DNA of 48,874 nt, from positions 1 through 48,874 of the forward strand of contig NZ_JAAQPH010000031.1 in the NCBI RefSeq assembly GCF_011683915.1. The letters run 5' to 3'. The notes under the pieces were generated by a model. The model was not told the DNA's origin. It ran no database searches and saw only the letters and a program-made list of their open reading frames with translations. A program made the position numbers and the translations under genes. Within the stretch, counting starts at the first letter, position 1. Each line of letters begins with the position of its first letter. Of the stretch, positions 6,472-27,187 are shown piece after piece. This DNA is from Pelagibius litoralis (GTDB lineage: Bacteria > Pseudomonadota > Alphaproteobacteria > Kiloniellales > Kiloniellaceae).

Positions 6472-8181
6472 TCATGTGACTGAACAGAAAAGTTCTCGTA
6501 AGTATCGTTGGTATCGCTCCCCCGCAACCACTGAAACCGACACTCCCGAAAATGGGGTGTCGGTTTGGTGCTTTTGGGCCCGGTTTTCTCCCATTTTTTC
6601 CCGGCTCTGCGCCGCCCAATCGAGGATGGTTCCGAGGTCGCCGTGCAGGGTCGCGTCGATCTGGCCGCGCTTTGGGCCCGGTGTGAGGGTGATCCTGCCG
6701 ACGATATCGCGAATAGCCTGGGTCGCCTCGTCGCGTTCCTGCGGGCTCTGGAGCGCCTCTGCGAGGCGTTCCACCTTGCCCCGGTAGATGCCGGCAAAGC
6801 CCGGGTGAATGTCCGGCACGTCGGCGATGGCGCTGTCGAGGCGCGCTCTCAACGCATCCTGTTCGGCCTCCAGTTTGTGCAGGCGTTCCATCAGCGCGCG
6901 GGTATAGCCGCCGTCCTCTATAACCGCGACGATCTCCTTGAGCTTGCGGTCGATCTCCGAGAGCGCCCGGCGGTCTGCGCCGGCCGTGGCGCGGCGCTCG
7001 CGTTTCAGGCGGTTGGTTTCCTCGACATAGGCCCGCATGGCCCGGGCCGCCACCTCCGGGGCCATCAGCCGGTCGCGCAAGCCCGCCAGGACGCGTTCCT
7101 CCAGGACCTTGCGGGCAATGGAGCGGCTGTTCTGGCAACTGGCGTTCATCACATGGGTGGAGCAGGCGTAGCGGCCCTGGCCGCGCATCACATAGCGTCC
7201 CCCGCAGCAGCCGCAGAAGATCAGGCCGGCGAGCAGGGCGCGGGGCCGGTGGGTCCGGTTCAGGCGTTCGGCATGACCGGCCTTGATGGCGGGGGCGTAG
7301 GTGATCGCCAGCTCGGCCTGGCGCTCCTTGACCGCCTGCCAGAGCGCGTCATCGATGATGCGCAGTTCCGGCACTTCCTTGACGATCCAACGCTCCGGCG
7401 GATTGAGCCGTGAGACGCGCTTGCCGGTCGCCGGGTCTTTCATGTAGCGCAGGCGGTTCCACACCAGCCGGCCGATGTAGAGTTCGTTGTTGATGATCCC
7501 GGTGCCGCGCCGGGCGTGGCCGCGCAGGGTGGTGTCTATCCAGAGCTTGCCGGCCGGGCCGGGGATGCTCTCGGCATTGAGGCGCCGCGCCAGGGTGCGC
7601 GGGCTGACGCCAGCGGCGAAATCCCGGAAGACGCGCCTGATGACCTTGGCCTGGGCCTTGTTGATTCTGCGTCCGCCCCGGATCGGATCGCCCGCGCTGT
7701 CGGCATCCTTCACCACGTCGTAGCCGTAGCAGAGCCCGCCGCCGGACTTGCCCTGCTCGACCCGGCCGCGCAGGCCCCGATGGGTCTTAGCGGCGAGGTC
7801 TTTCAGGAAGAGGGCGTTCATGGTGCCTTTGAGCCCCACGTGCAGTTCGCTGATCTCCCCCTCGGAGAGGGTGACGATCTCCACGCCGGCAAAGCGCAGA
7901 TGCTTGAAGAGGGTCGCCACGTCGGCCTGATCGCGGCTGACGCGGTCCAGGGCCTCGGCCAGCACCACATCGAAGCACCCCGCCTGCGCGTCCTGCAACA
8001 GCGCCTGCACGCCGGGCCGGAGGGTGACGCTCGCGCCGGAGATGGCCGCATCGTGGTAGGTCGCGGTGACCGTCCAGCCCTCGCGCTCCGCATGTTCGCG
8101 GCAGAGGCGGAACTGATCGGCAATCGATGCCGCCTTCTGATTGTCGGAGGAGTAGCGGGCATAGAGGACGGCGCGGGTCAT
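6472..8181 (-). CDS. Large serine recombinase (site-specific integrase)
   Basis: A 569-residue large serine recombinase. The N-terminal resolvase domain has YARYSSDNQ with the expected catalytic Ser11 and LDRVSRD, followed by a recombinase domain (about 160-270). A zinc-ribbon with paired cysteines comes next (FCGCCGGRY, then CSTHVMNASC), and then a coiled coil (about 370-450). It should cut and rejoin DNA at short att sites. The tRNA-derived core at 6519-6530 lies within its last codons, so roughly the final 14 residues and the stop come from DNA on the far side of the junction. That is expected if the gene abutted attP and gained a new tail on integration. A small protein gene is coupled upstream. 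Confidence 0.93.
   Translation of the reverse strand: MTRAVLYARYSSDNQKAASIADQFRLCREHAEREGWTVTATYHDAAISGASVTLRPGVQALLQDAQAGCFDVVLAEALDRVSRDQADVATLFKHLRFAGVEIVTLSEGEISELHVGLKGTMNALFLKDLAAKTHRGLRGRVEQGKSGGGLCYGYDVVKDADSAGDPIRGGRRINKAQAKVIRRVFRDFAAGVSPRTLARRLNAESIPGPAGKLWIDTTLRGHARRGTGIINNELYIGRLVWNRLRYMKDPATGKRVSRLNPPERWIVKEVPELRIIDDALWQAVKERQAELAITYAPAIKAGHAERLNRTHRPRALLAGLIFCGCCGGRYVMRGQGRYACSTHVMNASCQNSRSIARKVLEERVLAGLRDRLMAPEVAARAMRAYVEETNRLKRERRATAGADRRALSEIDRKLKEIVAVIEDGGYTRALMERLHKLEAEQDALRARLDSAIADVPDIHPGFAGIYRGKVERLAEALQSPQERDEATQAIRDIVGRITLTPGPKRGQIDATLHGDLGTILDWAAQSREKMGENRAQKHQTDTPFSGVSVSVVAGERYQRYLRELFCSVT
6519..6530 (+). other. att core copy: 3' end of tRNA-fMet (exact 12 bp)
   Basis: cccccgcaacca is identical to the last 12 bases of the tRNA gene (115-126). 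It divides the Gabija segment from the recombinase-bearing element and lies inside the 3' end of the serine recombinase reading frame. Short core identity of this kind is typical of serine-recombinase attachment sites. A hairpin follows at once. Confidence 0.75.
6534..6566. terminator. Hairpin next to the att core, terminator-like
   Basis: AAACCGACA (6534-6542) pairs exactly with TGTCGGTTT (6558-6566). CTCC/GGGG (one wobble) extends the stem to 13 pairs around CGAAAAT. A short T run (gcttttg) follows. It lies within the recombinase 3' coding region and mirrors the hairpins next to the other att copies. Confidence 0.6.
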
Positions 8182-10277: not shown

Positions 10278-11222
10278 GTGAAAGCTTCGATGGACAGCCA
10301 TCAGCCTGACACTTGGCAGTTGCGCGGCGGTCCGGCGGGACTCCACATATTCAACCGCAATACCGGCCTGAACGTCCTCGTCGACGAGATTCCTGTTCCC
10401 TCCTCGCTCCACTCGCGGGCGCCTCGGCAGGTATCTATCGCGCTCACGAACCGCTGCGATCTAGCGTGCGTGCACTGCTACGCGCCGAAATCGCGGGACG
10501 AGTTGCGTTTTGACGCGATCACACGGTGGCTCGCCGAGCTTGACGCGAATGGCTGTCTCGGGATCGGCTTCGGGGGTGGCGAGCCCACGCTATATCCGGA
10601 GTTCGCAAGGCTCTGTCAGCACGCCGCACGTGAGACCCGGCTTTCGGTGTCATTCACGACGCACGGCCACCACATCGATAGAGAGCTGGCTGAACGGCTG
10701 CGCGGCACCGTGAACTTCATCCGCGTGAGCATGGATGGAGTCGGCGCGACCTATGAGTCCATCCGACGGAAATCATTTCCCGAACTGATCGCCAATCTGG
10801 ACAACGTTCGGGACATCTCCCGCTTCGGCGTCAACGTCGTCATCAACAAGCGCACGCTGCCCGACCTCGATGAAGTTGTGCGTATCGCTGCCGACGCTGG
10901 GGCCTGCGAGCTGCTGCTTCTCCCACAGATGCCAGTTCGCAACGTACAGGCCATCCCCGAGGACGCGCTGCAGGACCTTTGCCGCTGGGTGAACGCGTAT
11001 AAAGGACCCCTGACGCTCTGTATCAACGAGGCGAGCGCGGACGGCTTTCCAATTTGCGATCCGTTGGCCGGGGAACGTGGTCTTCGCGCCTACGCCCATA
11101 TTGACGCGATGGGCGTACTTAAGCCGTCCTCTTACTCAAAGACCGGCGTTCAACTCGGGGAGGGAAGCGTGCTTCAAGTGCTCGACCAACTCGCGGACGA
11201 ACTCGTGGAGAACGACAGATGA
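10278..11222 (+). CDS. Radical SAM protein with a degenerate SPASM-like tail
   Basis: A 314-residue radical SAM enzyme. The iron-sulfur/SAM motif is CDLACVHC (C60, C64, C67), followed by GGGEPTLYPEF and FTTHG, typical of peptide- or protein-modifying members. The C-terminal part has the layout of a SPASM/twitch domain (PICDPLAGERGL, then DAMGVLKPSSYSKTGVQLG). The usual auxiliary-cluster cysteine after the proline is a serine here, so a second cluster is doubtful. The start is GTG 10278 (aggggag ten bases upstream), though ATG 10290 is possible. It overlaps the next gene by four bases (ATGA). No precursor peptide or SAM-modified substrate is obvious. As the first gene of a defence-like cassette, it may modify one of its two partners. 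Confidence 0.85.
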   Translation: MKASMDSHQPDTWQLRGGPAGLHIFNRNTGLNVLVDEIPVPSSLHSRAPRQVSIALTNRCDLACVHCYAPKSRDELRFDAITRWLAELDANGCLGIGFGGGEPTLYPEFARLCQHAARETRLSVSFTTHGHHIDRELAERLRGTVNFIRVSMDGVGATYESIRRKSFPELIANLDNVRDISRFGVNVVINKRTLPDLDEVVRIAADAGACELLLLPQMPVRNVQAIPEDALQDLCRWVNAYKGPLTLCINEASADGFPICDPLAGERGLRAYAHIDAMGVLKPSSYSKTGVQLGEGSVLQVLDQLADELVENDR

Positions 11223-11646: not shown

Positions 11647-14600
11647 ATGCCAGCACTGAACTGGGATACCTTCGCGAATCTGCCGGGTAGCGCCGAGAAG
11701 AACTTCGAGCTGCTCTGCAGAGGCCTCGTTCGCCACAATTATGGTAGCTACGGTGTCCTTCGCGCCCTCGCGAACCAGCCAGGAGTCGAGTTTCATCTGA
11801 AGTTAGACCGGCATTGTGACGCCCTGGGTGGCCCGGAACGTTGGTGGGGGTGGCAATGCAAATGGTACGACCTGCCGGAAAGCGGCACGCTGGGATCGAG
11901 GAGGCGGTCCAAGATTGTGGACGGCATTCGCAAGACAGAGGTTCATGTTCCTGGGGTCACGGACTGGGTGCTCTGGACTCGTCGCCCACTGACCAGCGGC
12001 GATCAGACGTGGTTCTATGGATTGTCGTCGAAGATGTCTTTGCACCTCTGGACCGCGGACGATATCGATAATCTCCTGGTCGGCCAGGCAAACGTGTTCC
12101 GCGGAACCTACTTCGGTGATCTGGTACTGACGCCGGACTTGTTGCGGGAACGACGCGAGCAGTCAGTCGCTTCGATTCGCGCGAGATGGCAGCCGGAAGT
12201 CCATCAAGTCGTAGACGCTGAACGTGACCTCCGACGCATGCTTGGGGAGTCAGACTCGTGGAATTCTCTCCGTGAGCTGGCCGCGGACTTGCGCTCAGCT
12301 GTGACAGCGGCGGAGTCGGCACCACAGGTGCCGGCCGCACTCGCGCCCATCGTGTCGCATGGAGTCGATACAGCAAGGCTCTTCGCTGATGGACTCGAGC
12401 GTGTTGCCGACGCGATTCGCGATGGAGACATTGACCTGTTACGAGATGAGCTCAGCTCGCAGCCGCGCAAACTGGCTGATGAAGTGGCCACGGCCCCTCG
12501 GCGACTGCGTTCAGGGAATCATCAAGCCGGGCTCTATGTGACGAACGCGATTGGCGGATGTCTTGAGACTCTGGACCTGTTCTCGGCAGTTGATGACGCC
12601 TTCTCGTCCCGCGTCGTCGCATTGGCCGCCTCGGCCGGCTGTGGCAAGACGCATCTTGCCGCCCAGCTGACAGCAGCTACAGACGGACGGCCGGACGGAA
12701 TACTCCTGCATGGCCGGGACCTGCACGCGACACATAAGCTCGACGACCTTGCGCGGCAAGTGACGATCGCGGGTCAGCCCGTTCAAACCATGGAGCTCTT
12801 GCTCGCGGCTGTGGATGCCGCTGGTCAGCGCGCTCGCCACCGGGTGCCGGTGGTCATCGACGGACTCAACGAGTCGGAAGATCCACGGACATGGAAGCCG
12901 CAGCTCGCTGCGCTGGAGACGGTCCTTGCGAAGTATCCGTACGTCCTGCTGGTCTGCACCATTCGGCCAGAATTCCAAGAAGAAGCTCTTCCCGCCGCAA
13001 CTCGGCGCGTAGAGATCGCTGACTACGGTGTGGATGTAGAAGACGCAATTCAGCTCCACTTTCGACATTGGAAGATTGACGCGACCGACGCCTCGCTACC
13101 CGGTTTCCTTCGCCACCCGTTGACCCTGAGGCTCTTCTGCGAGGTGAGTAACCCGACGCGTCATAAGATGGTTGGCATCGACGCGATGCCGGGATCACTG
13201 ACCGCGTTGTTCGATCGCTATCTCGATCAAGTCGGCGACCGAGTCGCAGAACTCGCTCCTCGAGCACAGCGTTACTACGCGCAAGACGTTCGGTCGGCGC
13301 TTACTACCATTGCGCAGTCCCTGTGGACATCGCGCACTCGTTCAATGGAGCTGTCTGAATTGCGCCACGCTCTGGGAGACGAGGGGCGCCCCTGGGACCA
13401 AAGTCTCGTGCGAGCCTTAGAGTATGAAGGCGTCTTGCTCCGCATGCCGTCGGACGGCGGCGGCGCGTACATGCCTGTGTACGACCGCCTGGGAGGGCAT
13501 ATCATCGCCAACGCTTTGCTCGCAAGCTACGGGCAGGCAGCCTTCGAGGCCTGGGTTCGTGAGGCGTCCACGATAGAACTTTTAGCCGGCGACTATGATA
13601 AACGACATCCGCTTGGCGAGGATATCCTGTATTCGCTTGTCGGGCAGGTCCCTCGACGCTTCTCCTCGAAGCAGCTGTGGCAGCTGGTTGACGAACCGCT
13701 CCGCTCTCCAGCCCTGCGATTCGCTGCGAAGCTCGAGGCGGCTTGCTTGGACGCGGCAACGGTCAACGAATTGCTCAACCGCGTACGAGGAGGAGACGCA
13801 AGGTTGCTTGAGCAACTCTGGGAAGTGCGAGGAGCGGCGAATCACCCACTGAACGCGGAAGCACTGGACGGAGTGCTTCGGCCGATCGGAGTGGCGATCC
13901 GAGACCTTGCTTGGACGGAGTGGGTGCGCAGAAACCAAGACAAGATACTTCGAGACCTGGAGCACCTCTCGCGACGTTGGAGAAACAGGGTAGCGCGGCC
14001 AGGCGATGTGCTTCGTGCTCGCTGGATCATGTGGACGCTCACGAGCACGGTTCGACGGTTGCGGGACCAGGCGACGAGCGCACTCTATTGGTTCGGTCGG
14101 GTCGATCCAGGAGGCCTTTTCGGCCTGACTGTCGACTCCCTGACCGTGAACGATGCCTATGTGGGCGAGCGCATGCTCGCCGCCTCGTACGGCGTCGTGA
14201 TGAGTCACCAACACGCAGACGCGGATTTCGCGGTCTTCTTGAAGCCGTTTCTCGGACAGCTCGCATCCGCGCTTGTCGGAGTTGCGGCAAGCGCGCCCAC
14301 GCATCACTATCTCGCGCGACTCTACGTGCGCGGCATTGCCGCGTTCGCCGCGAAATTCTACGGGTCCACTCTGCCGCACGCATTGCGTGGCACATGGGTA
14401 TTCGCGACGCCTGACCCCGTCCAGCCTCTCTCAAAAGACGATGCGAGATCCGACGAAGCAGGGCGAACGCTCCACATGGACTTCGAGAACTACACGCTGG
14501 GGAGGTTGTTTGACGATCGCCGAAACTACGACATGGACCATGCGGGGCATCAAGCTGCCGTGGCTCATGTGCGCGGCGTTGTGTGGGTCCTCGGATGGCG

Positions 14601-15747
14601 AGCAGCGAGCTTCCAGGAGCTCGACAGTAGGATCATGGAAGATGGCTATCGCGGAGGGCGTGGCGAGCGGCCACTCGCCGAACGCTACGGCAAGAAGTAC
14701 GGCTGGATCGGGTTCTACACGTACGCCGGACTACTCGAGGAGCGAGGCGAGTTTCCTCGCGAAAACCATGAGTTTTCCGACGTGGACATTGACCCGTCGT
14801 TCCCTGAAGGTCCGCCTATAGATGGAAGCGCCTCGGTTCCAGTGGCCTGGCTGTCGCCGACCGTTGAGAGTCATGAGAGTTGGATACGAGAGAACACCAC
14901 GTCGGTACCCCGCAGCCTCCTTCGTCGGGATCTGATCGGTGGCCACCGTGGGCCGTGGGTGGTCGTCCACGGCTTCGTTAAGGCTGAGGACAGGGTTCTC
15001 GGGCGAGAAGTATGGGCATTCATCTCTGCGTTGGTAACACCGAAGGAGAGCGTCGCGCGACTAGTTGCTGCGCTGAACGCCGGAGAGCGGCCTTGGGTGT
15101 CTCGTCACGTTCCGAGCGACTATTACACGTTCTCTGGCGAGATCCCTTGGCACCCACACTTTGCCTCCGGGGCACTCGCCGAGAACGCGTACTGTGAGAG
15201 CGTGCGGAACCGCGCGGGCGCAGTCGAGATGGAGGTGCTCGCGCACAGCTACGCGTGGGAGAGCTACCACAACGAAATGAACCGCGCGGGAAGCACGCTG
15301 GTGCCGTCTCAGCCCTTCTCGCATCGGTTCGACCTCCGCAGCGCCGCGCAATCCTTCGACCATTTCCTGCCTGACGGGGGCCGAGCCACGATCACGCTCA
15401 GTGGTGTCGATGGCCTCGAAGGAGACGTGCTCTACATCCACGAGGACCTACTTCGGCAGTACTTAGACGACCGCACCATCATCTGGTTTGCGTTCGGTGA
15501 GCGGGAGCTGCGACCCTATCCACCATCACCGCCGCAATGGCTCGTGGATGCTCAAGAGCAACAGGCAAGTACGTGGTGCGAGGTACTGACAGAGGCAGAC
15601 CTCAAACAGAATGGAAAGCCATCGCGAAAGAAGAAGGCAGCCAAGCGGCAGCCGGGAAAGACGAGCACAGCGAAGAAGCGGTCCGCCAAGAAGGCCCGGA
15701 AGCAGGTTGCATCCAAGGGTGCAAAACGGGCCGGAAGGAAGCCGTGA
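11647..15747 (+). CDS. Giant PD-(D/E)XK-STAND NTPase (Avs-like defence sensor/effector candidate)
   Basis: A 1366-residue protein. The N-terminus (about 15-130) looks like a restriction-type PD-(D/E)XK nuclease: FELLC, GVEF and WGWQCKWY supply the acidic and QxK positions. A P-loop NTPase follows, with Walker A ASAGCGKTHL (K334) and Walker B VVIDGLNE (D405-E409), the DGLNE form seen in STAND/NACHT-like ATPases. The long C-terminal half (about 600-1320) should be the sensor region, although no repeats are obvious. The last 45 residues are a lysine/alanine-rich tail like histone H1 (KKKAAKRQPGK, KKRSAKKARKQ). Antiviral STAND proteins bind a phage protein through such a C-terminal sensor and unleash the N-terminal nuclease. 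That role is inferred here by architecture. The start ATG has tggag six bases upstream. Confidence 0.82.
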   Translation: MPALNWDTFANLPGSAEKNFELLCRGLVRHNYGSYGVLRALANQPGVEFHLKLDRHCDALGGPERWWGWQCKWYDLPESGTLGSRRRSKIVDGIRKTEVHVPGVTDWVLWTRRPLTSGDQTWFYGLSSKMSLHLWTADDIDNLLVGQANVFRGTYFGDLVLTPDLLRERREQSVASIRARWQPEVHQVVDAERDLRRMLGESDSWNSLRELAADLRSAVTAAESAPQVPAALAPIVSHGVDTARLFADGLERVADAIRDGDIDLLRDELSSQPRKLADEVATAPRRLRSGNHQAGLYVTNAIGGCLETLDLFSAVDDAFSSRVVALAASAGCGKTHLAAQLTAATDGRPDGILLHGRDLHATHKLDDLARQVTIAGQPVQTMELLLAAVDAAGQRARHRVPVVIDGLNESEDPRTWKPQLAALETVLAKYPYVLLVCTIRPEFQEEALPAATRRVEIADYGVDVEDAIQLHFRHWKIDATDASLPGFLRHPLTLRLFCEVSNPTRHKMVGIDAMPGSLTALFDRYLDQVGDRVAELAPRAQRYYAQDVRSALTTIAQSLWTSRTRSMELSELRHALGDEGRPWDQSLVRALEYEGVLLRMPSDGGGAYMPVYDRLGGHIIANALLASYGQAAFEAWVREASTIELLAGDYDKRHPLGEDILYSLVGQVPRRFSSKQLWQLVDEPLRSPALRFAAKLEAACLDAATVNELLNRVRGGDARLLEQLWEVRGAANHPLNAEALDGVLRPIGVAIRDLAWTEWVRRNQDKILRDLEHLSRRWRNRVARPGDVLRARWIMWTLTSTVRRLRDQATSALYWFGRVDPGGLFGLTVDSLTVNDAYVGERMLAASYGVVMSHQHADADFAVFLKPFLGQLASALVGVAASAPTHHYLARLYVRGIAAFAAKFYGSTLPHALRGTWVFATPDPVQPLSKDDARSDEAGRTLHMDFENYTLGRLFDDRRNYDMDHAGHQAAVAHVRGVVWVLGWRAASFQELDSRIMEDGYRGGRGERPLAERYGKKYGWIGFYTYAGLLEERGEFPRENHEFSDVDIDPSFPEGPPIDGSASVPVAWLSPTVESHESWIRENTTSVPRSLLRRDLIGGHRGPWVVVHGFVKAEDRVLGREVWAFISALVTPKESVARLVAALNAGERPWVSRHVPSDYYTFSGEIPWHPHFASGALAENAYCESVRNRAGAVEMEVLAHSYAWESYHNEMNRAGSTLVPSQPFSHRFDLRSAAQSFDHFLPDGGRATITLSGVDGLEGDVLYIHEDLLRQYLDDRTIIWFAFGERELRPYPPSPPQWLVDAQEQQASTWCEVLTEADLKQNGKPSRKKKAAKRQPGKTSTAKKRSAKKARKQVASKGAKRAGRKP

Positions 15748-18764: not shown

Positions 18765-19325
18765 TCGGACCTCCGGATGAAAGCGTTTTCGACTGCATTT
18801 TATGTCAAACGCAGTCTCGCAGCATCGTGTCTAGTAGCGATATTATGACCCGGCATTCGCTTCAGAATCATGGCCACTCGCCGGTCGACTCGTTCTTGAT
18901 CACTCAGGTTTTTAGAGGCCGCGGGAGATCACTTTCCGATCCAACAGGACGCAACGTCAATTCCCATTGTTCGCACGAGATGCTGCGTCTTTGCAGGGTT
19001 CCAAAACCAAGAGTCCCTGCTACTTGTCGTACCTCTGCATCTTGCCCTATAGCTCCGCTAGGCCGCAAACTCGGTCAAAGTGCAGCTGACGACTGTTCTA
19101 TCTTGAGAAAAGCTAGAAGCTCAACAAAGTCGGCGACTGATCGCTCCTTGGCCATGTTCTAGATTTCGAATCAGCTTGGTATCCGTCTTCGGGCGTGTCG
19201 ATCTTCGGCCGCAAGCTGAACTATAGCAATTCGTCGGATCGCAGCAGTTTGGAGTTTCGAGTCTTTTGATCTTGGATCGTTGGGCCTGCGCTGTTTTTGT
19301 ATTTGTCTGAATCCGCAACTTCGTC
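18765..19325. other. Intergenic stretch, probably decayed DNA
   Basis: No convincing gene on either strand. Short frames (18827-19162 plus, 19363-19121 minus) show no motif or ribosome site. The HerA operon converges on this region from the right, and I saw no strong terminator after its stop. Confidence 0.35.
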
Positions 19326-21179
19326 TCAGTCGACCATTCGGAGTTGACAAGGTGATGGATCAATCGTCGTCATTGTCGGGCGTGAGAGGTGCATGAACGA
19401 ACACAGAGCTTGGCCTGGGGCAAGGTTTGGCACCGACTTCCATGTTGCATCGTTCACACCCGGAACTACCTTCCGTAGGCGTTGCAGCACGCCAGTGTCA
19501 GTGAGTTTATGTAGGATCCAATTGTTTACCAAACCCAGGACTTCGTCTGGTAGATGGCTAGGAAGCTGTGTTATGAAGACGAGGCCTAAGTAACGCTTGC
19601 GTCCACGGCGCGCGATGCGCGCCACCTGATCAAAAAGATTGGGCATCTGCTTGATCCTTTGGGCCGATAAGAATTCGTGCGCCTCCTCGATGAAAATGTT
19701 GATCCGAGTTAGCGGCGTCGGCTTCTTGGACTCTCTCAAGGCAAGCTCGCGCTCTGTGTAGAGTTCATCCTGTCGAATCTGTAGGGTCCGCAGCAATTGT
19801 GCGATCACCAAGTTGCGGAGATACGGAGCATCCATGTCACTAAGATCAATGACTGCGATCTGCCCCGGGATGATAAGTTCGCCTGAATTGATGCGATCCT
19901 GATCGTTTTGGGAGAAAACCTCGGCTTTTTTCATTCGCCAGAGACGTTTGGCAATCGCCATCCAAGAGAATTTGTTTGTCTCAATGTCACGCTTTTGAAT
20001 TACCTCCACCAACCTCTTTTCATGCCCTTTGAATCCTCTCGAGCGCCCCTCGAAGCTGTCGAGCGACTTATTGATTTTCGCGATTGCCGCACTAACTGTG
20101 TCGATCATCATCTCGATGGTCATGCGTGGCCAACCACGATCGAGTTCATCGATTTCTAGTGCTAGGTTTTGTTCTTGCTCGTTCGCTGGAAAGATTCGTT
20201 CGGCTTCCATCGTCACCCGGCAGATCTCGTAGGCGTCAATCAGCCGTCGCTCCTGGGCATCGTTTAAACTGAGAATTTCGGACAGCACGTTTGGTGAAAG
20301 TTCATCAAACGCAATCTTGAACTGGCGGATGTTCGCATGTTTAGGATTGGCTGGAGTCCGACCTGCGAGTACAAACAGGCGAGTGTTGTCGGCGCCCTTT
20401 GCCCGAAGCTCTCGCTTTTTTAGTGCGGCGAGCATCTGCTGATTCTCGGTCGGTTTCTCCATCGTGGTGTATTCGCCCTCAATATCGAAGATGACAACAG
20501 CGTTTCCGGCATCTGCAAGATTCATGATTGTCCCAGAAACCGTCGTGCTCTTGCCTCCGCCGGTCGTACCAAGAATAGCCATGTGGCTGAAGAGCACTGA
20601 CTTCTTCGCTGCCGGCATTTTGATAGGTAGGGAACTGATGCCGTCCAAGAGCCCCAGACGAACGGGCTTCTCGTTTGCAGGGATGTCAAGGCCAAGCACT
20701 TCTTTGATCTCATTTTCGGTAAGAAGGAAAACAGGGCTGTTCGGGCAGGGGCGGCGCAATGGAGGGATGAGTTGGCTGTCGACGCGCTCCCCGAAAACCT
20801 CAACCTGTGCAATGCCGTGATACTTTGGCGTCAAGACAGCCCCATGGGCCGCCGCGACCACAAGGGTGGGAGCGGTGGCGCCAAGCGCATCGGGCTCAGC
20901 GAAAGGCCCCGAGGCGACAACGCCAAGATATTCCGCCTCGACTTCGCCGGTCCGAGGATGGATGCTTGGGATTCTGACAAAAGCTTCACGGGCGACCGCT
21001 CCAATCTGATGTTCCGGCACAAGTACGGTGACATTGCCATCCTCGGAACCAGGGCGATCGAACATAGTACGTGCACATGAACCGATATAGGGTTCCGGCT
21101 CCTGATATGGGCCACCGTTGTCTGTACCAGTGCGCTCAAGGCGATTGGCGGCGGTGGAAATCTTCTCTGTTGAACTCAT
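19326..21179 (-). CDS. HerA/FtsK-like ATPase (DUF87), last gene of the six-gene operon
   Basis: A 617-residue HerA-family ATPase. An N-terminal beta-barrel-like region (about 20-130) precedes the motor. Motor motifs are Walker A GTTGGGKS (204-211), FDIEGEY about 25 residues later, and the acidic IFIEEAHEFL near residue 470, followed by VARIARRGRKR and LGLVFITQLPS. HerA proteins form hexamers that pump DNA and usually pair with a nuclease. The NurA-like gene is immediately upstream with a 24-base gap. The start is set at ATG 21179 because AGGAG lies six bases upstream. The TTG 18 bases earlier (21197) is less likely. Paired HerA-nuclease units occur both in archaeal end resection and in bacterial antiphage systems. 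Confidence 0.9.
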   Translation of the reverse strand: MSSTEKISTAANRLERTGTDNGGPYQEPEPYIGSCARTMFDRPGSEDGNVTVLVPEHQIGAVAREAFVRIPSIHPRTGEVEAEYLGVVASGPFAEPDALGATAPTLVVAAAHGAVLTPKYHGIAQVEVFGERVDSQLIPPLRRPCPNSPVFLLTENEIKEVLGLDIPANEKPVRLGLLDGISSLPIKMPAAKKSVLFSHMAILGTTGGGKSTTVSGTIMNLADAGNAVVIFDIEGEYTTMEKPTENQQMLAALKKRELRAKGADNTRLFVLAGRTPANPKHANIRQFKIAFDELSPNVLSEILSLNDAQERRLIDAYEICRVTMEAERIFPANEQEQNLALEIDELDRGWPRMTIEMMIDTVSAAIAKINKSLDSFEGRSRGFKGHEKRLVEVIQKRDIETNKFSWMAIAKRLWRMKKAEVFSQNDQDRINSGELIIPGQIAVIDLSDMDAPYLRNLVIAQLLRTLQIRQDELYTERELALRESKKPTPLTRINIFIEEAHEFLSAQRIKQMPNLFDQVARIARRGRKRYLGLVFITQLPSHLPDEVLGLVNNWILHKLTDTGVLQRLRKVVPGVNDATWKSVPNLAPGQALCSFMHLSRPTMTTIDPSPCQLRMVD

Positions 21180-21203
21180 AGCAGTCTCCTGTATCAAGCG
21201 GCG

Positions 21204-22577
21204 TCAGGCCCGCGTCTTACGTTCATCGAGAAAACGGAAGGGGGAACCGCTGCGGGCTAGGCTGGCATGGACCTGGGCCGAAAGGCTGCCGGGCTCAAAC
21301 ATGCCTTTGCAGGTGCGGTCGGCGATATCGATCAGGTTTGGAAAGCCGCGCGCCTCTTGTAAAACGCTGTCCGCCATCACGATCTGCGCAGCCTCGTGAA
21401 CATGATCCTCGTGGGCGTAAAAGACGCGGCCTGGGCATAGTGCGGATGCCCGGAATACTCCGAGAACCACCTTCGAGCCTGCATCCTCCTGAAAGCTACG
21501 GACCGCTTGGTACAGGCCAGATTTCTTGTAGTGCGGGCGCTCGTAACTGCTGCCAGCAATATAGCCTTCGATGATATCTTTCGTATTGCGCAGGATGGCA
21601 TACTGCAACGGTAGGAGCGCATTGGCGATGGTGACGATAGCCTGATCACTAACCGTGCTCGGCACAAAGATGAACCTCTGGTGTTCAAGAAGAAGTTGCC
21701 GAAGTATTTCTAAGCTCGCAAATGCCATCTCGTTCCGACCTGAGCCGACGATCAACTCATGCGGCATCGGTCCTCCGTGTCCCATGCGCCATGGGCACTG
21801 TGAGCGCTCCACTAGCATGGCACGCTCGGCATAAATCATTAGGGCACGGCACAGCATGTCGCTGATATTCATCGGCCGACCATCGTCGCCAAAGTCTTGT
21901 TTGGCCACCTCCCGCTTCTTTCGGCGGGCGCGACGGGAAAGGAAATCCAGAACCTCGTCCTCGGGGTTTTCGTTCTTTCGCAATATGTCGTGGCGGTAGA
22001 GCCTATGCCCGATACAGCCGCCATCCCCGGTACCTTGATAGGACGTAAGGCAAATACCAATCTGGACTACGGATACGGGAAGGGTACTAACTGCGACGCG
22101 CGTGCCGTCGCAAGCCTCTACAAGTCCATTGAAGAGGACGTTGCTTAGTGCCCGAGTGAGGATGTCGGGAGTGAGAGTGTAGATGCCGCTCTCACGGGAG
22201 GCGTCTGGCGCAGATGGAAGACCTGCCTCCAATGCCTTTAGTACTCTAGGCGCCATATCATCCTCGAAGCGCGCTGCTGTTTCAACCTCACGCTCAAGAC
22301 GAGCAGCGAGCAGGTTCATCCGCTCCCCAGAGGTCCAGGTATCGAGGTCTAGGGCTGCCTTAAATTCGGTCTCAAGAGACTCGGACTCCAATTGATCCTC
22401 GGGTCCAAAAGCCTCCTCTCTCTCGGCATCGCGGCGACTTGCCGCGAATCCCGCGGGCTCCTCAGCTTCGGTACCAACGCCCTCATCTTCGTCGTCGGAT
22501 GAGCTTAAAGCATCCTTGACTTTGTCCAGTCCCATAATGACCTCCGATTCACTCAAATCATTTTTCGAGCGGGCCAT
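21204..22577 (-). CDS. NurA-like nuclease candidate, partner of HerA
   Basis: A 457-residue protein with a highly acidic N-terminus (SSSDDEDEGVGTEAEEP) and a C-terminal domain of about 300 residues. That domain includes ERAMLVERSQCPWRMGHGGP, PSTVSDQAIV and LRNTKDIIEGYIAG, the order and spacing expected of a NurA fold (hydroxyl/acid site, GHG-P segment, K-bearing strand). The match is by eye and moderate. The strongest support is position: it lies between an ImmA/IrrE peptidase (1-base overlap, TGATG) and a HerA ATPase. NurA degrades DNA fed by HerA. Alternatively it is an unrelated HerA-associated effector. Confidence 0.6.
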   Translation of the reverse strand: MARSKNDLSESEVIMGLDKVKDALSSSDDEDEGVGTEAEEPAGFAASRRDAEREEAFGPEDQLESESLETEFKAALDLDTWTSGERMNLLAARLEREVETAARFEDDMAPRVLKALEAGLPSAPDASRESGIYTLTPDILTRALSNVLFNGLVEACDGTRVAVSTLPVSVVQIGICLTSYQGTGDGGCIGHRLYRHDILRKNENPEDEVLDFLSRRARRKKREVAKQDFGDDGRPMNISDMLCRALMIYAERAMLVERSQCPWRMGHGGPMPHELIVGSGRNEMAFASLEILRQLLLEHQRFIFVPSTVSDQAIVTIANALLPLQYAILRNTKDIIEGYIAGSSYERPHYKKSGLYQAVRSFQEDAGSKVVLGVFRASALCPGRVFYAHEDHVHEAAQIVMADSVLQEARGFPNLIDIADRTCKGMFEPGSLSAQVHASLARSGSPFRFLDERKTRA

Positions 22578-23302
22578 CAGGACTTCGACTCCATTATTTT
22601 CCCAAACAGCGCGGTTACACCAGAAGACGTTCTTGTTGGCTGGATCATGGTGGCCAGCCGCGCAGCTGCAATTGCTGGTAGGCCGAAGTGGCGCCGTATG
22701 GAATCGGCAGAAGGATCACTCATAGATCGAACTTCGCGCCAAGGCGCGAGGAGTTCGATAGCCAAGTCATCCGCTTCATCCTCCATAGCGGCAACCCGTC
22801 CGGCTAGGTGAAGCTGACGACGATCCATGGCATGCCGGAACGGCTCAATGGGTACGTCACGTAGTGCCGCCGAGAGCTTCTCCCCATGTGTTGATGAGCG
22901 GGTGCGGTCGAGGACAGCTAAAATTTGGGGTCCGAAAGCAGCTACAGCGTCCTTCCGTGGTTTGAGGTAGTGGAGCAGCAGGTGTGCTACTTCGTGAGCG
23001 ATGGTCAGCCGCTGCTCGTCTTCGGGATCGTTCTTGTTCACCAATACTAGGGCGGCTCCCGCATCAGCGAAGAGGCAACCATGAAGCGCGCGTGGGGTAC
23101 TCTCGACCCACGGATCTGCCCCGATACGGTTGAGTACCTCGCAGATGGTGCTCGATGTGAGTCCTGGCACACGTAGAATTGCAACCGGCAGTGCCCGGCC
23201 AACTGCGCGTTCTATGTCCACCGGATTGCCAAAGAGGGAGCGGCCTCCTATTTGCCGCCAAAAAGTATCCGCTAGATCCACACTCTGCGAGCGGGCCGTC
23301 AT
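22577..23302 (-). CDS. ImmA/IrrE-family metallopeptidase
   Basis: A 241-residue zinc peptidase of the ImmA/IrrE type. The signature HEVAH lies at 103-107 (LTIAHEVAHLLLHY), and the third ligand is in EDEADDLAIELLAPW near residue 172, the usual E-x-x-A form. Family members cleave repressors or regulators in response to DNA damage or other stress (ImmA for ICEBs1, IrrE/PprI in Deinococcus). It overlaps the genes on both sides (4 bases and 1 base). In this operon a proteolytic switch acting on the neighbouring small protein or on the sigma-like protein would be plausible. That is inference only. Confidence 0.88.
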   Translation of the reverse strand: MTARSQSVDLADTFWRQIGGRSLFGNPVDIERAVGRALPVAILRVPGLTSSTICEVLNRIGADPWVESTPRALHGCLFADAGAALVLVNKNDPEDEQRLTIAHEVAHLLLHYLKPRKDAVAAFGPQILAVLDRTRSSTHGEKLSAALRDVPIEPFRHAMDRRQLHLAGRVAAMEDEADDLAIELLAPWREVRSMSDPSADSIRRHFGLPAIAAARLATMIQPTRTSSGVTALFGKIMESKS

Positions 23303-23664
23303 TCATCCTCGTCCTGGTCTCGGGCAGCGATGAGGCGTCCAGTGTGAGAGGTACTTGACTTATGAGCCATCCTAAACCGCTCGACAGCCTCCGCAGCTCT
23401 CAAGAACTTAACCAATTGATCCAAGTCTATAGCAAGGTCCTTGGCTATTTCGGAAACGTCCTCGATCCAGCGTCCTGAGCGCGGGCGTAGGCACAAAGCA
23501 AGCTCGTTCAGAACTCTATCGGAAACGGCGAGGTCTAACGCAGCATCCCCATCGAACGCTTGGCACCATTCCTCGATCAGAGAGGCGATCAATGGGGCAG
23601 GCCCACGGATTGCACGGCGGGCAGCGCGGGCAATAGCCTTATCGGCAGGAGATCTAGAGTTCAT
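23299..23664 (-). CDS. Small hypothetical protein between sigma-like and ImmA/IrrE genes
   Basis: A 121-residue, mostly helical protein with VSEIAKDLAIDLDQLVKFLRAAEAVERFR near residues 65-93 (key elements VSEIAKDLAI and LVKFLRAAE). This could be a helix-turn-helix, since the IAKDLAID-x-x-QLVKFL spacing is suggestive but not diagnostic. It overlaps the upstream sigma-like gene by 11 bases and the downstream peptidase gene by 4. ImmA/IrrE peptidases often have an adjacent DNA-binding partner, and this protein or the sigma-like one could be it. Confidence 0.65.
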   Translation of the reverse strand: MNSRSPADKAIARAARRAIRGPAPLIASLIEEWCQAFDGDAALDLAVSDRVLNELALCLRPRSGRWIEDVSEIAKDLAIDLDQLVKFLRAAEAVERFRMAHKSSTSHTGRLIAARDQDEDE

Positions 23665-24244
23665 CTCGCAACCTCCTCATCCTCAAAAGGATACGATCTT
23701 TAGTCTGTTTCACGATCTTTTCGATATCTGGAGCATCTGGATCGAGCCCAAGAGCCTTCGCGAATGCCGAAGTTTTCTTTTCATCGTTGAGGATGAGGCT
23801 AAGGACCCTTACCTCGATGTCATTCGTAGCAAGCTTGTTTCCGTAAAGTTTCATAATGTGTCGGGCGTCTATTGCGTCTTCACCTCTAAATACATCTTTC
23901 GAGCGAGAGGCCCAGAACTCGACATCGGTTCGAACGTTTTTGGCAAGAAGTGCGCCCCGGTTAGTGCGTGTGCGCAAAAGATCTATGGCGTCAGCGTTCA
24001 CGATCCGACAAAGGTAGGACCAAAGGGAACTCTTGTCAGTGTCACACTTCGCTGGTTCGGCCGAGTAGATTAGAATCGCATCAGTGGCAAGGTCATGCCG
24101 ATCTTCGGGTGATAAGCTTGGGAACTTGCGAGCGAGGAAGCCCTCCAGTGGGTCGAGAGCAGCGAGAAAGAGATCGCGAGACGCTGTGCGGCTTCCGGCG
24201 CACATTCGCTGATGGACCGTGTCAAGACGTTCCTTGAGGTCCAT
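23654..24244 (-). CDS. Sigma-70-like protein within the HerA operon
   Basis: A 196-residue protein resembling an ECF-type sigma factor. LARKFPSLSPEDRHDLATDA and SSLWSYLCRIVNADAIDLLR (about 30-95) look like region 2, with the usual run of acidic and aromatic residues. The C-terminus (KKTSAFAKALGLDP, then RILLRMRRLRDEL) resembles region 4. The start is placed at ATG 24244 (AAGG eight bases upstream) rather than the in-frame GTG nine bases earlier. It follows the methyltransferase by 11 bases. A sigma-like protein in a nuclease/methylase operon is unusual. It may switch on the operon, or have been reused as a DNA-binding subunit. Confidence 0.7.
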   Translation of the reverse strand: MDLKERLDTVHQRMCAGSRTASRDLFLAALDPLEGFLARKFPSLSPEDRHDLATDAILIYSAEPAKCDTDKSSLWSYLCRIVNADAIDLLRTRTNRGALLAKNVRTDVEFWASRSKDVFRGEDAIDARHIMKLYGNKLATNDIEVRVLSLILNDEKKTSAFAKALGLDPDAPDIEKIVKQTKDRILLRMRRLRDEL

Positions 24245-24255
24245 GGGACACACCT

Positions 24256-25245
24256 TTACCGGGTCTCTGGCTGTGCGATAAGACGCTGCTGGGCCAACTT
24301 GCAGTAGCTCGGATTGAGTTCAATGCCTATTGATGGAAGCCCTCGGGCGGCCGCAACGGCTAGGGTCGTGCCCGATCCAGTGTACGGATCAAGGACGATA
24401 CCTTTCTTGGGACACCCTGCCGCTAGGCATCGATTGACCAGCGCCTCGGGAAAGGGCGCGGCATGTCGATACTTCCGTGGTGCATTAGGCGCGGGAATGT
24501 CCCAAACGTCTTCTTGGCCATCAAGCCCTTGCCGATCGAAATAATATTTGCCGGTTTTTGACAGGATAAAGATCGTTTCAGTAGTAGTCCAAGGTCGGTC
24601 TCTTACGCTCGGCTCCGCTAGGGGCTTCGGTTTGCGCCAAATGACGGACGACCGAAGCACCCAGCCGTCGGCTTGAAGGGCGAGGGCGACGCGCCACGGT
24701 ACGCCGAGGAGGGACTTCCTTGGCAAACCGAAGCCCGGCCGATCGACCGCTCGATATTTTTGCCGGGCAACGCCCCGCCAAATTTGTTTTGGATCGCCGC
24801 CTCGGGGCTGTCCTCGGCCAGAATAATAGGTGTCGCCGAGTACAACGAAGGCCGTGCCGGTGGGTGTGAGTGTTCGTAGAATCTCGCGGAAGACTTCTGT
24901 GAGATCCTCCACATATTTTTCGACGGTCTCTTCTTGGCCAGCTTGGCCATCAATTTCATAGTCACGTTGCCAGTAATAGGGGGGGCTTGTCACCACACAG
25001 TCGATTAGATCATCTGGAAAACGTTTTAAGTTCGTGAGTGCGTCACCATTGCCTACGATCCAAGGCACTTGGCCGTCATAGTAGCCGTACTTGGAATTCT
25101 CGAGTAAGTCAGGGTTTATTAAACTGAAGTCATCGTTTTTCCGCCCTTTAAGGCTCCTGGGACAAGGCTCGGCATAGGTCTTTGGGGCATTTTGCTCTTG
25201 CCGACTAGGCAAAATATCTCCACGAGTATTGACCTGATCTGTCAC
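24256..25245 (-). CDS. Site-specific DNA methyltransferase (beta class, N4-cytosine or N6-adenine)
   Basis: A 329-residue amino-methyltransferase with the permuted beta order. The catalytic motif TSPPY (86-90) comes first and the SAM-binding motif DPYTGSGTT (286-294) last, followed by GIELNPSYCKLAQQR. SPPY is more usual for N4-cytosine enzymes than the D/NPPY of adenine enzymes, though not exclusive. It is the first gene of the six-gene minus-strand operon, with GTG start 25245 and AGGAGG upstream (25249-25254). No cognate restriction enzyme of ordinary type is nearby. Here it probably marks host DNA for the HerA/NurA-like machinery. The target sequence cannot be read from the gene. Confidence 0.92.
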   Translation of the reverse strand: MTDQVNTRGDILPSRQEQNAPKTYAEPCPRSLKGRKNDDFSLINPDLLENSKYGYYDGQVPWIVGNGDALTNLKRFPDDLIDCVVTSPPYYWQRDYEIDGQAGQEETVEKYVEDLTEVFREILRTLTPTGTAFVVLGDTYYSGRGQPRGGDPKQIWRGVARQKYRAVDRPGFGLPRKSLLGVPWRVALALQADGWVLRSSVIWRKPKPLAEPSVRDRPWTTTETIFILSKTGKYYFDRQGLDGQEDVWDIPAPNAPRKYRHAAPFPEALVNRCLAAGCPKKGIVLDPYTGSGTTLAVAAARGLPSIGIELNPSYCKLAQQRLIAQPETR

Positions 25246-25664
25246 TTTGCCTCCTGATTACTCACATAGATCATAAATAAATCATAGATTCCGGCCAATT
25301 ATTGGGGTTTATAGAGATTTGCGCGCTTAATAAAACTAATGATTTCTATCATATTTACTTTCGTATTTAAGTGCGCTACTGGAATCATCTAAGATGACAG
25401 TGTGCTTAGGTCCCCAAGAAATAACAACCTCAAATGGCAGATTTTCGGCAGCGCATCAAAGTGTCTGTGTGCTGAGATGGTTTTGAGTGGTTGTTCTGCT
25501 CAATGCCTGACTCTGCTTATGGGAGCGACCGCCCGACAGTTGGCGGGAGGATACGACCCTTCTAGAACCAGACATAGCAACATAGCTGATCTACTATAAA
25601 TTGGGACCCGATTAAGACAGTGCTGGCTGGTCAGCCAATTTTCAAGAAGGGCGTTGGCAATCGA
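25246..25664. promoter_or_regulatory. Divergent, AT-rich promoter region between the HerA operon and Kiwa
   Basis: A 419-base gap with divergent genes on each side. The first 140 bases are AT-rich and should contain the operon promoter for the minus strand. The frame at 25402-25599 has no recognisable product. A small hairpin, CCGCC-cgacagtt-GGCGG, lies near 25528-25546. Confidence 0.4.
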
Positions 25665-26180
25665 ATGAGCGGCTTCTCGAAGTCCATCTTGTTCCTCAGT
25701 TCCTACGCACCGCTGTTCGCCATCCTGGCGATCAAGTACTACCCAGTCGATTGCCAAGTCTCTTTGTTGGCCGGCATAATGACCGTAGTTTCAATACTGT
25801 TGTTCGCCGGGCTCTTTATTGGTTTGAGCAGGACCTCTGCTCCGCAAAGCATCGAGGTTAAGACCGTAGGGCGGCGTGACAGCGAATTACTTTCCTACGC
25901 GATCACTTATTTCTTGCCATTCCTCTCTCTCGACCTGAGCAACCGCTACGACCTTGCTGCCTTTCTGCTGCTCTACGCCGTGATATGGCTGACCTACGTC
26001 CGTGCGAATGCAGTGCACATCAACCCACTTTTCCACGTCTTGGGATATCGGCTGTTCGAGATTGAAGACAAGCCAAGCGGACGGCTCGTGACCGTCATAA
26101 CAAAGTCGCCGTTTATTCGCCCAAATGAAGTGATCACCGTAAAGTTGGAGACCAGCCACTCAGTTGGGATCCAGGTTTAG
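25665..26180 (+). CDS. kwaA: KwaA: membrane subunit of the Kiwa defence system
   Basis: A 171-residue inner-membrane protein with four hydrophobic segments, around residues 5-22 (ILFLSSYAPLFAILAIKYY), 29-50, 75-90 (ITYFLPFLSL) and 94-112 (FLLLYAVIWLTYV). A soluble beta-rich tail follows. This is the size and topology of KwaA. The following gene is a DUF4868/KwaB homologue 20 bases downstream, the two-gene layout of Kiwa. KwaA is thought to sense phage attachment or injection at the membrane and recruit KwaB. The start is set at ATG 25665, with aagaagg 14 bases upstream. A GTG 15 codons earlier (25620) is possible. Confidence 0.85.
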   Translation: MSGFSKSILFLSSYAPLFAILAIKYYPVDCQVSLLAGIMTVVSILLFAGLFIGLSRTSAPQSIEVKTVGRRDSELLSYAITYFLPFLSLDLSNRYDLAAFLLLYAVIWLTYVRANAVHINPLFHVLGYRLFEIEDKPSGRLVTVITKSPFIRPNEVITVKLETSHSVGIQV

Positions 26181-26200
26181 AAGCTGCTGGAGGTAGTCCT

Positions 26201-27187
26201 ATGGCCCGCCACTCTAAGAAGGCAAGGGAACTATTAGCCGAAGTTGCGGCGTTAGACGAACATGTCACCGACGAAGACACTTGCTCTATTTCGCTCTTCG
26301 CCCCTACTGGCCCAAGGTCCGGCCCGCCGTTCCGCACTGTCGCGGTCACACCGGATCTCAGCTATAGGCTTCGTGACACGACGCTTGCCTCACTGAAGAA
26401 AGCGACAGAGGCTGCTCTCAGTGATCCGGATGGCGTCGGCCCTTACGCCTTCGACGCCCTGCCGGACCATCATATTAGCTACTTGAACGTGGACGAGGCA
26501 GACTTCGTTGGTGAGTGGTTAGATGCGATTCCAGCCGCTCTGGAACAACCTGTCTTCGACGGGGATCAAGGCTACCTCAAGAAGATCAAGCACTACACCC
26601 TCAAGTTTTCCATCGCTGACAACAAGACCTTTGTCCGGTTCAGGGCTAGAACTCCGGCGATGGCGTTTAAGAAGGGCAGGATTCACGCGATCTTCGAGGC
26701 GAACAGATTCACGCATGTGGCACCCAACATCTTGGAGTTCGACGATGTCTCGGACTTGTTGCTCTTTGAGGGCTTCTTGTTCGTCTTGAACGCTACGGGC
26801 TTTGACCGTGTCGTGGACTGCGCAGCGAAGATAAAGGAAATCGCCACCGGCTACATGAATGACGTAATGCAGCAAATCGAAGTTGCCAATGCGGATGAGG
26901 TCGTAGCAAAGCTTTCTGAAGACGGAGCTTTCTCGAAGAAGGTGTTGAGCATGGAACGGCTAAACATCACCGCCCAAATCACTGGCGCGGACTTGGCGAA
27001 GGTGATTGATGATTTTGGGGTGGACATAGGGTACAAACTCGAAGGGGATCGCATCAAACTCATGCTCAATCCAGACGACAGGAGCCAGATGTGGAGGTTC
27101 CTCCGTCTCTTGTCACTTGACCATGTCGAGGCAGCGGCCACGAGGGAGAAATTCGTCACCCACGGCGCCAAGCGTCCCGTTGGTTGA
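26201..27187 (+). CDS. kwaB: KwaB: DUF4868 protein of the Kiwa defence system
   Basis: A 328-residue DUF4868-family protein. The conserved core includes AFKKGRIHAIFEANRF and LLLFEGFLFVLNATGFDRVV (about residues 155-210), which I recognise as the KwaB signature region. A good ribosome site, ggagg, lies eight bases before the ATG. In characterised Kiwa, KwaB forms dimers that associate with the KwaA membrane complex, bind DNA and block phage replication or transcription. It is the last gene before the att copy at 27360, so Kiwa sits at the right edge of the defence segment. Confidence 0.88.
   Translation: MARHSKKARELLAEVAALDEHVTDEDTCSISLFAPTGPRSGPPFRTVAVTPDLSYRLRDTTLASLKKATEAALSDPDGVGPYAFDALPDHHISYLNVDEADFVGEWLDAIPAALEQPVFDGDQGYLKKIKHYTLKFSIADNKTFVRFRARTPAMAFKKGRIHAIFEANRFTHVAPNILEFDDVSDLLLFEGFLFVLNATGFDRVVDCAAKIKEIATGYMNDVMQQIEVANADEVVAKLSEDGAFSKKVLSMERLNITAQITGADLAKVIDDFGVDIGYKLEGDRIKLMLNPDDRSQMWRFLRLLSLDHVEAAATREKFVTHGAKRPVG

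Follow-up and report, generated by a model that had tools for sequence, protein, structure and literature searches.

What does a compact operon do that couples a DNA methyltransferase, regulatory genes and a HerA-type DNA translocase? Such an operon lies on contig NZ_JAAQPH010000031.1 of the alphaproteobacterium Pelagibius litoralis, in a stretch of 48,874 nucleotides that we analysed at its full length (hereafter, the window). Its six minus-strand genes encode, in transcription order, a methyltransferase, a sigma factor resembling the extracytoplasmic function (ECF) group, a small protein termed X, an ImmA/IrrE (M78) metallopeptidase, a protein termed gene 5, and HerA (Table 1). An earlier note, made from the letters of this DNA, had proposed an undescribed system that joins self-marking by methylation to a stress peptidase and a DNA-degrading HerA–nuclease pair, an interpretation that as a whole is partly supported here. 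The cassette is a real conserved unit, and its conservation is stronger than the earlier note could know. A defence role is likely; that it is a mobile, self-regulated, restriction-modification-like defence system is a reading that we hold about as readily as we doubt it.

A conserved five-gene core

Relatives were found with a short, hand-made HerA motif from the window, QLPxHLPDEV, which we searched for in 84,980 species genomes and in IMG/VR. The motif gave 54 matches in the species genomes and one in IMG/VR (L031). This HerA was present at 44 of the 54, the other 10 being without any HerA match. X, ImmA/IrrE and gene 5 adjoin HerA in 39 of the 44 HerA loci, 38 of which also carry the sigma gene; L059 and L062 hold a C-terminal HerA remnant only, with no gene 5 in either genome, and L068, L073 and L084 are cut by contig ends. 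The 43 loci analysed below comprise the window, these 39, a second Citreicoccus copy reached through gene 5, and two predicted viral contigs that carry the cassette, one of which (L123) was found through gene 5, not HerA.

Used as single queries, HerA and gene 5 of the window returned no close relative from plasmids, IMG/VR or class genomes: in the class genomes, two stretches of about 120 residues matched HerA at 26-27% identity, and one 41-residue stretch matched gene 5 (E = 0.0099). The sigma protein had no match in plasmids, and gene 5 of L083 had none in phage or plasmid records. The ImmA/IrrE query led to a Candidatus Chlorohelix plasmid, which together with the HerA motif opened the way to the relatives. 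Searched against IMG/VR, an ImmA/IrrE alignment gave, among the matches listed, 14 loci in which the peptidase stands without the remaining cassette genes.

In 42 of the 43 loci, sigma, X, ImmA/IrrE, gene 5 and HerA follow one another in this order on a single strand; the exception is L105, where no sigma gene is recognised. This shared order rules out chance clustering or mis-called genes. Record titles place the hosts in Chloroflexota, Bacteroidota, Acidobacteriota, Planctomycetota, Myxococcota, Nitrospirota, Actinomycetota, Bacillota, KSB1 and Pseudomonadota. The HerA tree, in whose host groups a record titled Deltaproteobacteria is shown as Myxococcota, requires 15 changes between 12 host groups (minimum, 11; shuffled mean, 26.2), which indicates that the cassette is partly lineage-bound and partly transferred. 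On this tree the window HerA clusters with those of Falsiroseomonas, Methylobacterium and Bradyrhizobium. The cassette is rare and sporadically spread: searches of 385 alphaproteobacterial genomes for gene 5 and of 329 Pseudomonadota genomes for X each found a single carrier, the window's own genome.

Pairwise divergences of the five core genes correlate strongly with one another (r = 0.71 to 0.86, shared host ancestry included), most strongly for gene 5 with HerA (0.86). Their correlation with MTa, one of two methyltransferase types, is weaker (0.47 to 0.56), and none of 999 permutations equalled any of these values. Searched for in 38 genomes, X matched 39 times inside cassettes and once, weakly (3e-4), elsewhere; X is a signature of the cassette, confined to it apart from that match. 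The gene order, the co-divergence of the core and the confinement of X point to one machine. HerA and peptidase motifs are intact almost throughout.

Some copies are broken, namely HerA in L095, L105, L110 and L117 and sigma in L095. A single in-frame stop interrupts HerA in L105 (L105:6666-6668, TGA) and L110 (L110:5397-5399, TAG), and HerA is in pieces in L095 and L117. One Citreicoccus genome holds two five-gene cores (L119 and L120), with neither type of methyltransferase nearby.

HerA and a partner of a new family

HerA of the window scores 69.6 bits for DUF87 (cut-off, 23.2) and has both Walker motifs, so the label it had been given holds. Of the 43 loci, 42 have Walker A and 42 have Walker B; the genes that account for the misses, in L076 and L080, are broken. 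Solved HerA proteins in PDB are matched at 3e-17 and weaker. Full-length NCBIfam HerA equivalogs stay far under their cut-offs, which makes it a divergent HerA subfamily.

Gene 5 is present in all 43 loci. Five of its residues (Q172, R244, E251, D403, C423) are invariant, a sixth (E274) is conserved in 42 loci, and D157 of a DG motif in 33 only. The protein had been called NurA-like, a label that we abandon. None of 28 members matches the NurA domain PF09376 at E <= 1, a PDB sequence search returned no NurA up to E = 10, and profile–profile comparison with a six-member set of true NurA proteins gave a probability of 0.3%, no better than unrelated decoys (0.1 to 2.3%). NurA identity is thus unsupported by Pfam, by PDB sequences and by profile comparison with decoys. 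Bacterial and archaeal NurA–HerA share <20% identity (PMC9960219), so gene 5 may yet share the NurA fold. E251, D403 and E274 would be compatible with the metal-binding acidic site of an RNase H-like fold, which proves nothing. Neither gene 5 nor X of the window matches any model in Pfam, PADLOC, NCBIfam or PHROGs. We regard gene 5 as the HerA partner, of a new protein family, and infer for it a nuclease role.

The probable control genes

On its own, the sigma protein of the window reaches 20.7 bits for sigma-70 region 2, under the Pfam cut-off of 24. At the family level, 15 of 19 members match Sigma70_r2 at E <= 0.1 (best, 3.9e-10), and the family profile finds ECF SigE in PDB at E = 9.6e-5, which backs the earlier description of the protein as sigma-like. 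The gene is recognised in 42 of 43 loci.

X of the window alone has no Pfam match. HTH_31 is found in 2 of 19 family members (best, 3.3e-5), and the X profile reaches HipB, a helix-turn-helix protein, with an E of about 0.4, weaker than a spurious ribosomal match (0.012). X is probably a helix-turn-helix repressor. Its gene adjoins that of ImmA/IrrE in all 43 loci, its C-terminal AAR box is kept in 41, and it is likely to be both repressor and substrate of the peptidase.

The ImmA/IrrE protein has the features of a switch-type peptidase: the window copy scores 36.7 bits for M78 (cut-off, 22), HEXXH is present in all 43 loci, and the family profile matches IrrE in PDB at 3.6e-4. Peptidases of this kind cut a partner helix-turn-helix repressor in ICEBs1, Deinococcus and CBASS, and single-stranded DNA stimulates PprI/IrrE and CapP (PMC10904395, PMC10233336). 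The 'stress peptidase' of the earlier note is a peptidase as claimed, better taken together with X as a repressor/protease switch.

Two types of methyltransferase

In 33 of 43 loci a methyltransferase gene adjoins the core, and it belongs to either of two distinct types. The five core genes are nearly always together, and the methyltransferase is common but not universal. MTa lies upstream on the same strand in 25 loci and downstream on the opposite strand in L107, L111, L122 and L123; MTb lies upstream in the window, L044 (Bradyrhizobium tropiciagri SZCCT0338), L115 and, in two pieces, L121. L098 is counted as upstream by coordinates, its sigma frame running long. The types are distantly related, with cross-type profile matches of 4e-19 and weaker, and TSPP is kept in all 29 MTa proteins. 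Pfam upholds the methyltransferase label (Table 1). Both the frequency of the gene and its two types would be expected of a mark that is important and whose specificity is exchanged. As for the coupling of methyltransferase to nuclease genes that defines restriction-modification, 33 loci have a methyltransferase beside the core, and in the window operon Pfam and PADLOC recognise no nuclease domain.

Neither type was found in the ten other loci. Contigs end within 331 bases upstream in L032 and L097, a type IIG restriction-modification gene lies downstream in L117 (PADLOC 2.5e-131), and no methyltransferase was seen near the core in L077, L090, L100, L104, L118, L119 and L120. The methyltransferase of L113 is cut by a contig end. 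That of L121 is in two pieces about 1.2 kb apart (L121:3858-6349) and that of L106 is split over several frames (L106:4869-6148), the five core frames being still in order in both. Among plasmids, the four best relatives of the window methyltransferase (47-49% identical) belong to other cassettes, in each of which an AAA ATPase gene and a hypothetical gene come next (Table 1).

These counts bear on abortive infection as an alternative, whereby HerA and gene 5 would form a promiscuous nuclease that kills the infected cell, as DUF4297–HerA does, kept silent until infection by the sigma–X–ImmA switch and with the methyltransferase as an accessory or a partial immunity factor. In favour of such a scheme, DUF4297–HerA degrades the DNA of host and phage alike (PMC11291478), a suicidal system is under the control of CapH/CapP (PMC10233336), and ten loci have neither type of methyltransferase. 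However, a methyltransferase in 33 of 43 loci is more than expected of an accessory, and we consider this alternative unlikely.

A similar control triad before true NurA–HerA

The Candidatus Chlorohelix plasmid carries the order sigma–hypothetical–ImmA/IrrE–hypothetical–ATPase–SbcD–SbcC. An Aulosira plasmid, reached through the Chlorohelix ATPase, has the same order, and every gene of one cassette has its homologue in the other (L011 and L012). In both, the gene that precedes the ATPase belongs to the true NurA family, as a six-protein profile finds Deinococcus NurA (7f6d) at 3.6e-37; the true-NurA alignment had no match in IMG/VR. The triad sigma–X-like–ImmA/IrrE is present in these two of six NurA–HerA loci (L011-L016). 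Their peptidases are homologous to the window's family (2.4e-19 and 2.5e-15), their sigma matches are weak (0.009 and 0.001), and their X-like proteins have LAAAR near their ends, with overall similarity to X absent or marginal. The HerA proteins of L011-L016 are barely or not matched by the window-family HerA profile (0.003 for L011).

These cassettes resemble that of the window in that HerA follows its partner gene and, in L011 and L012, the control triad has the same order; they differ in having true NurA, SbcD and SbcC, and no methyltransferase in front. L011 and L012 represent another HerA machine, distinct from that of the window, with a comparable control triad in front. The position of the triad there suggests that sigma–X–ImmA/IrrE may be a portable control module, of which only the peptidases are clearly homologous across the two machines. 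On a Sphaerospermopsis plasmid, a 223-amino-acid frame (L015:1308-1976) with a weak X-profile match (E = 0.0039, 350 frames) lies 5.7 kb before NurA–HerA–SbcCD.

Such cassettes also favour a module for repair or end-processing of damaged DNA, in which HerA and gene 5, induced through ImmA/IrrE, would resect broken ends with the methyltransferase as a passenger; the Deinococcus damage response is likewise under IrrE control (PMC10904395). Sporadic spread, with gene 5 in a single one of the 385 alphaproteobacterial genomes, ill suits housekeeping repair, as do predicted viral carriers, defence neighbours and the frequent methyltransferase. Repair seems to us improbable. The restriction-modification-like reading, by contrast, draws support from the predicted viral carriers and from the neighbours of the operon.

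Genomic setting

All six frames in the window are intact, with one terminal stop each, and the open reading frame list offers HerA an earlier TTG start at 21197. The gaps between genes, in transcription order, are +2, -11, -4, -1 and +24 bases, which agrees with the earlier account of six co-directional genes that overlap or lie no more than 24 bases apart. Promoter-like matches in 18900-26300 were not in excess (3, against 4.6 expected from shuffles), nor did a terminator scan exceed shuffles. The upstream regions of four alphaproteobacterial loci, inspected by eye only, gave no demonstrated shared operator.

The window is defence-rich, with, in order, Gabija, a viperin-like gene, an Avs2-like NTPase, a relaxase, the six-gene operon, and the divergent KwaA followed by KwaB. 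Scores are 7.5e-283 for GajA, 6.8e-240 for GajB, 1.5e-17 for the viperin-like gene and 4e-23 for KwaA, with KwaB also identified; the Avs2-like NTPase reaches 1e-94 in PADLOC, yet is far under NCBIfam's Avs2 cut-off. The relaxase gene, of RlxS type, shares the strand of HerA and lies 1.3 kb downstream of it, and Kiwa and relaxase genes had indeed been named as neighbours. A tRNA-Met stands at the left end of the window, and the frame 6475-8181 resembles, by eye, a serine recombinase.

Around the relatives, a pooled scan covered 141 of 144 flanking proteins, picked by length with three short ones omitted, and listed 25 of 385 PADLOC and 25 of 119 Pfam families. It contains type I and N6_Mtase matches, their locus unnamed. 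In one predicted viral contig, the cassette (L122:15-5865) adjoins what look, by eye, like type I restriction-modification genes.

Table 1 Features of the operon, its surroundings and related cassettes (aa, amino acids; positions without a locus prefix are those of the window)
Feature	Position	Strand	Properties
Methyltransferase (type MTb)	24256-25245	minus	329 aa; TSPPY motif; Pfam N6_N4_Mtase 3.5e-40; PADLOC MTase_II 1.8e-74
ECF-like sigma factor	23654-24253	minus	199 aa; Sigma70_r2 3.7e-4 on its own
X, small, probably helix-turn-helix protein	23299-23664	minus	121 aa; conserved C-terminal AAR box
ImmA/IrrE (M78) metallopeptidase	22577-23302	minus	241 aa; HEXXH; Pfam 4.1e-9; PADLOC capP 2.7e-9
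Gene 5, HerA partner of new family	21204-22577	minus	457 aa; putative nuclease
HerA-type ATPase/DNA translocase	19326-21179	minus	617 aa; DUF87 5.3e-19; PADLOC HerA 7.3e-29
Intergenic region, methyltransferase to divergent KwaA gene	25246-25619		Presumed site of the operon's promoter and operator
Gabija GajA and GajB	2200-6409		Defence genes
Viperin-like gene	10278-11219		Defence gene
Avs2-like NTPase	11647-15747		Defence gene
Kiwa KwaA and KwaB	25620-27187		Defence genes
Methyltransferase–AAA ATPase–hypothetical cassettes, plasmids	L007:8070-12722; L008:5476-9382; L009:7995-11747; L010:5041-8921		Three genes each
Sigma–X-like–ImmA/IrrE–NurA–HerA–SbcD–SbcC cassettes, plasmids	L011:6600-15914; L012:5723-15035		Chloroflexota and Cyanobacteriota

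Comparison with known systems

The combination had been said to match no named system, and no model in Pfam, PADLOC (protein models, database of 2023), NCBIfam or PHROGs names it. No description of the operon was found in the literature searched, a set with most subscription papers and all preprints outside its scope.

The closest described operon that we found, compared by its description only, is tdtA of ICEth1 in Thermus thermophilus, with the order Tth111II/TthHB27I (type IIG)–NurA-like–TdtA (FtsK–HerA superfamily)–N4/N6 methylase (PMC5365140, PMC7767461). Both are tight operons on a mobile element in which a translocase of the HerA/FtsK family directly follows a partner nuclease gene (putative in the window) and methyltransferase genes are present. 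ICEth1 differs in its type IIG enzyme and its NurA-family protein, and sigma, X and ImmA/IrrE are absent from the four-gene operon as described. That operon serves DNA donation, and tdtA, the nurA-like gene and the restriction-modification gene are needed for efficient transfer (PMC5365140, PMC7767461). A donation module of a mobile element, in which HerA would export donor DNA prepared by its partner and the modification enzyme, would accord with these shared themes, with the nearby relaxase gene and with the type IIG gene of L117, but the 25 commonest Pfam families of the flanking proteins include neither relaxases nor coupling proteins, and the ICEth1 operon as described has no counterpart of the control genes (PMC5365140), which leaves donation a shade more improbable than repair.

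DUF4297–HerA is a proven antiphage nuclease complex that acts by abortive infection (PMC11291478). Like the window operon it pairs HerA with an adjacent effector gene, and solved HerA proteins of this kind occur among the PDB matches of the window HerA. It consists of two genes, with a nuclease domain of the PD-(D/E)xK type and no methyltransferase or switch in the description available (PMC11291478); gene 5 matches no model of that nuclease kind in Pfam or PADLOC. CapH/CapP, ImmR/ImmA and DdrO/IrrE share with the cassette a small protein of helix-turn-helix type (probable for X) adjoining an ImmA/IrrE metallopeptidase, and the window peptidase itself matches the capP model. In the window cassette, by contrast, a sigma gene precedes the pair and X is only weakly helix-turn-helix-like.

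HerA/FtsK capture (PMC10853773) and BREX-related capture (PMC12839542) likewise place a HerA translocase in a presumed anti-invader operon, but together with Orc/Cdc6, D5 helicase, restriction endonuclease, PglZ, TGT and others. NurA, ImmA and the IrrE protein are unmentioned in the main texts of these two sources, where sigma appears as domain resemblances.

We also considered MADS, a methylation-associated defence with several mad genes together, on whose composition a literature search gave nothing relevant. HerA reaches mad8 at 3.6e-19, ranked after six HerA models; no mad model is matched by the sigma protein, X, ImmA/IrrE or gene 5, and none appears among the best 25 of 64 matches of the methyltransferase. 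Membership of MADS is rejected on these grounds.

A proposed mechanism and its standing

With sigma, X and ImmA/IrrE placed ahead of gene 5 and HerA, and a methyltransferase frequently coming first, the gene order suggests methylation-marked restriction that is released by repressor cleavage. In such a system, the methyltransferase would mark the cell's own DNA, different lineages using either of the two types. The helix-turn-helix protein X would hold the operon low, with the ECF-like sigma factor as its dedicated activator. Upon infection or damage to DNA, for which single-stranded DNA may be the cue as it is with CapP and PprI/IrrE, ImmA/IrrE would become active and would cut X, possibly near its C-terminal AAR box, allowing the sigma factor to drive the operon. 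HerA would then thread double-stranded DNA, and gene 5, with its invariant acidic residues, may degrade DNA that is without the mark.

The Gabija, viperin-like, Avs2-like and Kiwa neighbours and the two predicted viral carriers argue for defence, as do the antiphage precedent of a HerA–nuclease pair (PMC11291478) and the cutting of repressors by ImmA/IrrE peptidases (PMC10904395, PMC10233336). Several points weigh on the other side. No nuclease relation of gene 5 was detected in Pfam, PDB sequence or profile comparisons, and the helix-turn-helix evidence for X is weak. Neither methyltransferase type is found in ten loci, eight of which have at least 1.8 kb of upstream sequence. The co-divergence of the core includes shared host ancestry, and the flank scan, made without a control set, is only suggestive. 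We infer the system as a whole from which genes the cassette holds and in what order, from their motifs and co-divergence, and from its sporadic spread and its surroundings rich in defence genes, all of them features of sequence.

A broader proposal is that the cassette represents a new restriction-modification-like class of immunity, in which a HerA and gene 5 nuclease would be held off by an ECF sigma factor, a helix-turn-helix repressor and an ImmA/IrrE protease, restriction being switched on only upon infection or DNA damage, and in which the three-gene switch would be portable, acting also on true NurA–HerA–SbcCD. This claim is more tentative, and we lean slightly against it.

That five genes keep their order in 42 of 43 loci from about ten phyla, with X and gene 5 of the window unmatched in four libraries, speaks strongly for a real machine that has escaped the catalogues. 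If its role in defence is true, one operon would unite methylation with a HerA pump and with a sigma switch gated by a protease, and X would offer a signature gene for locating the cassette in any genome. Through the related cassettes that have true NurA, SbcC and SbcD, the bacterial machinery of end resection would be tied to the sensing of infection or damage.

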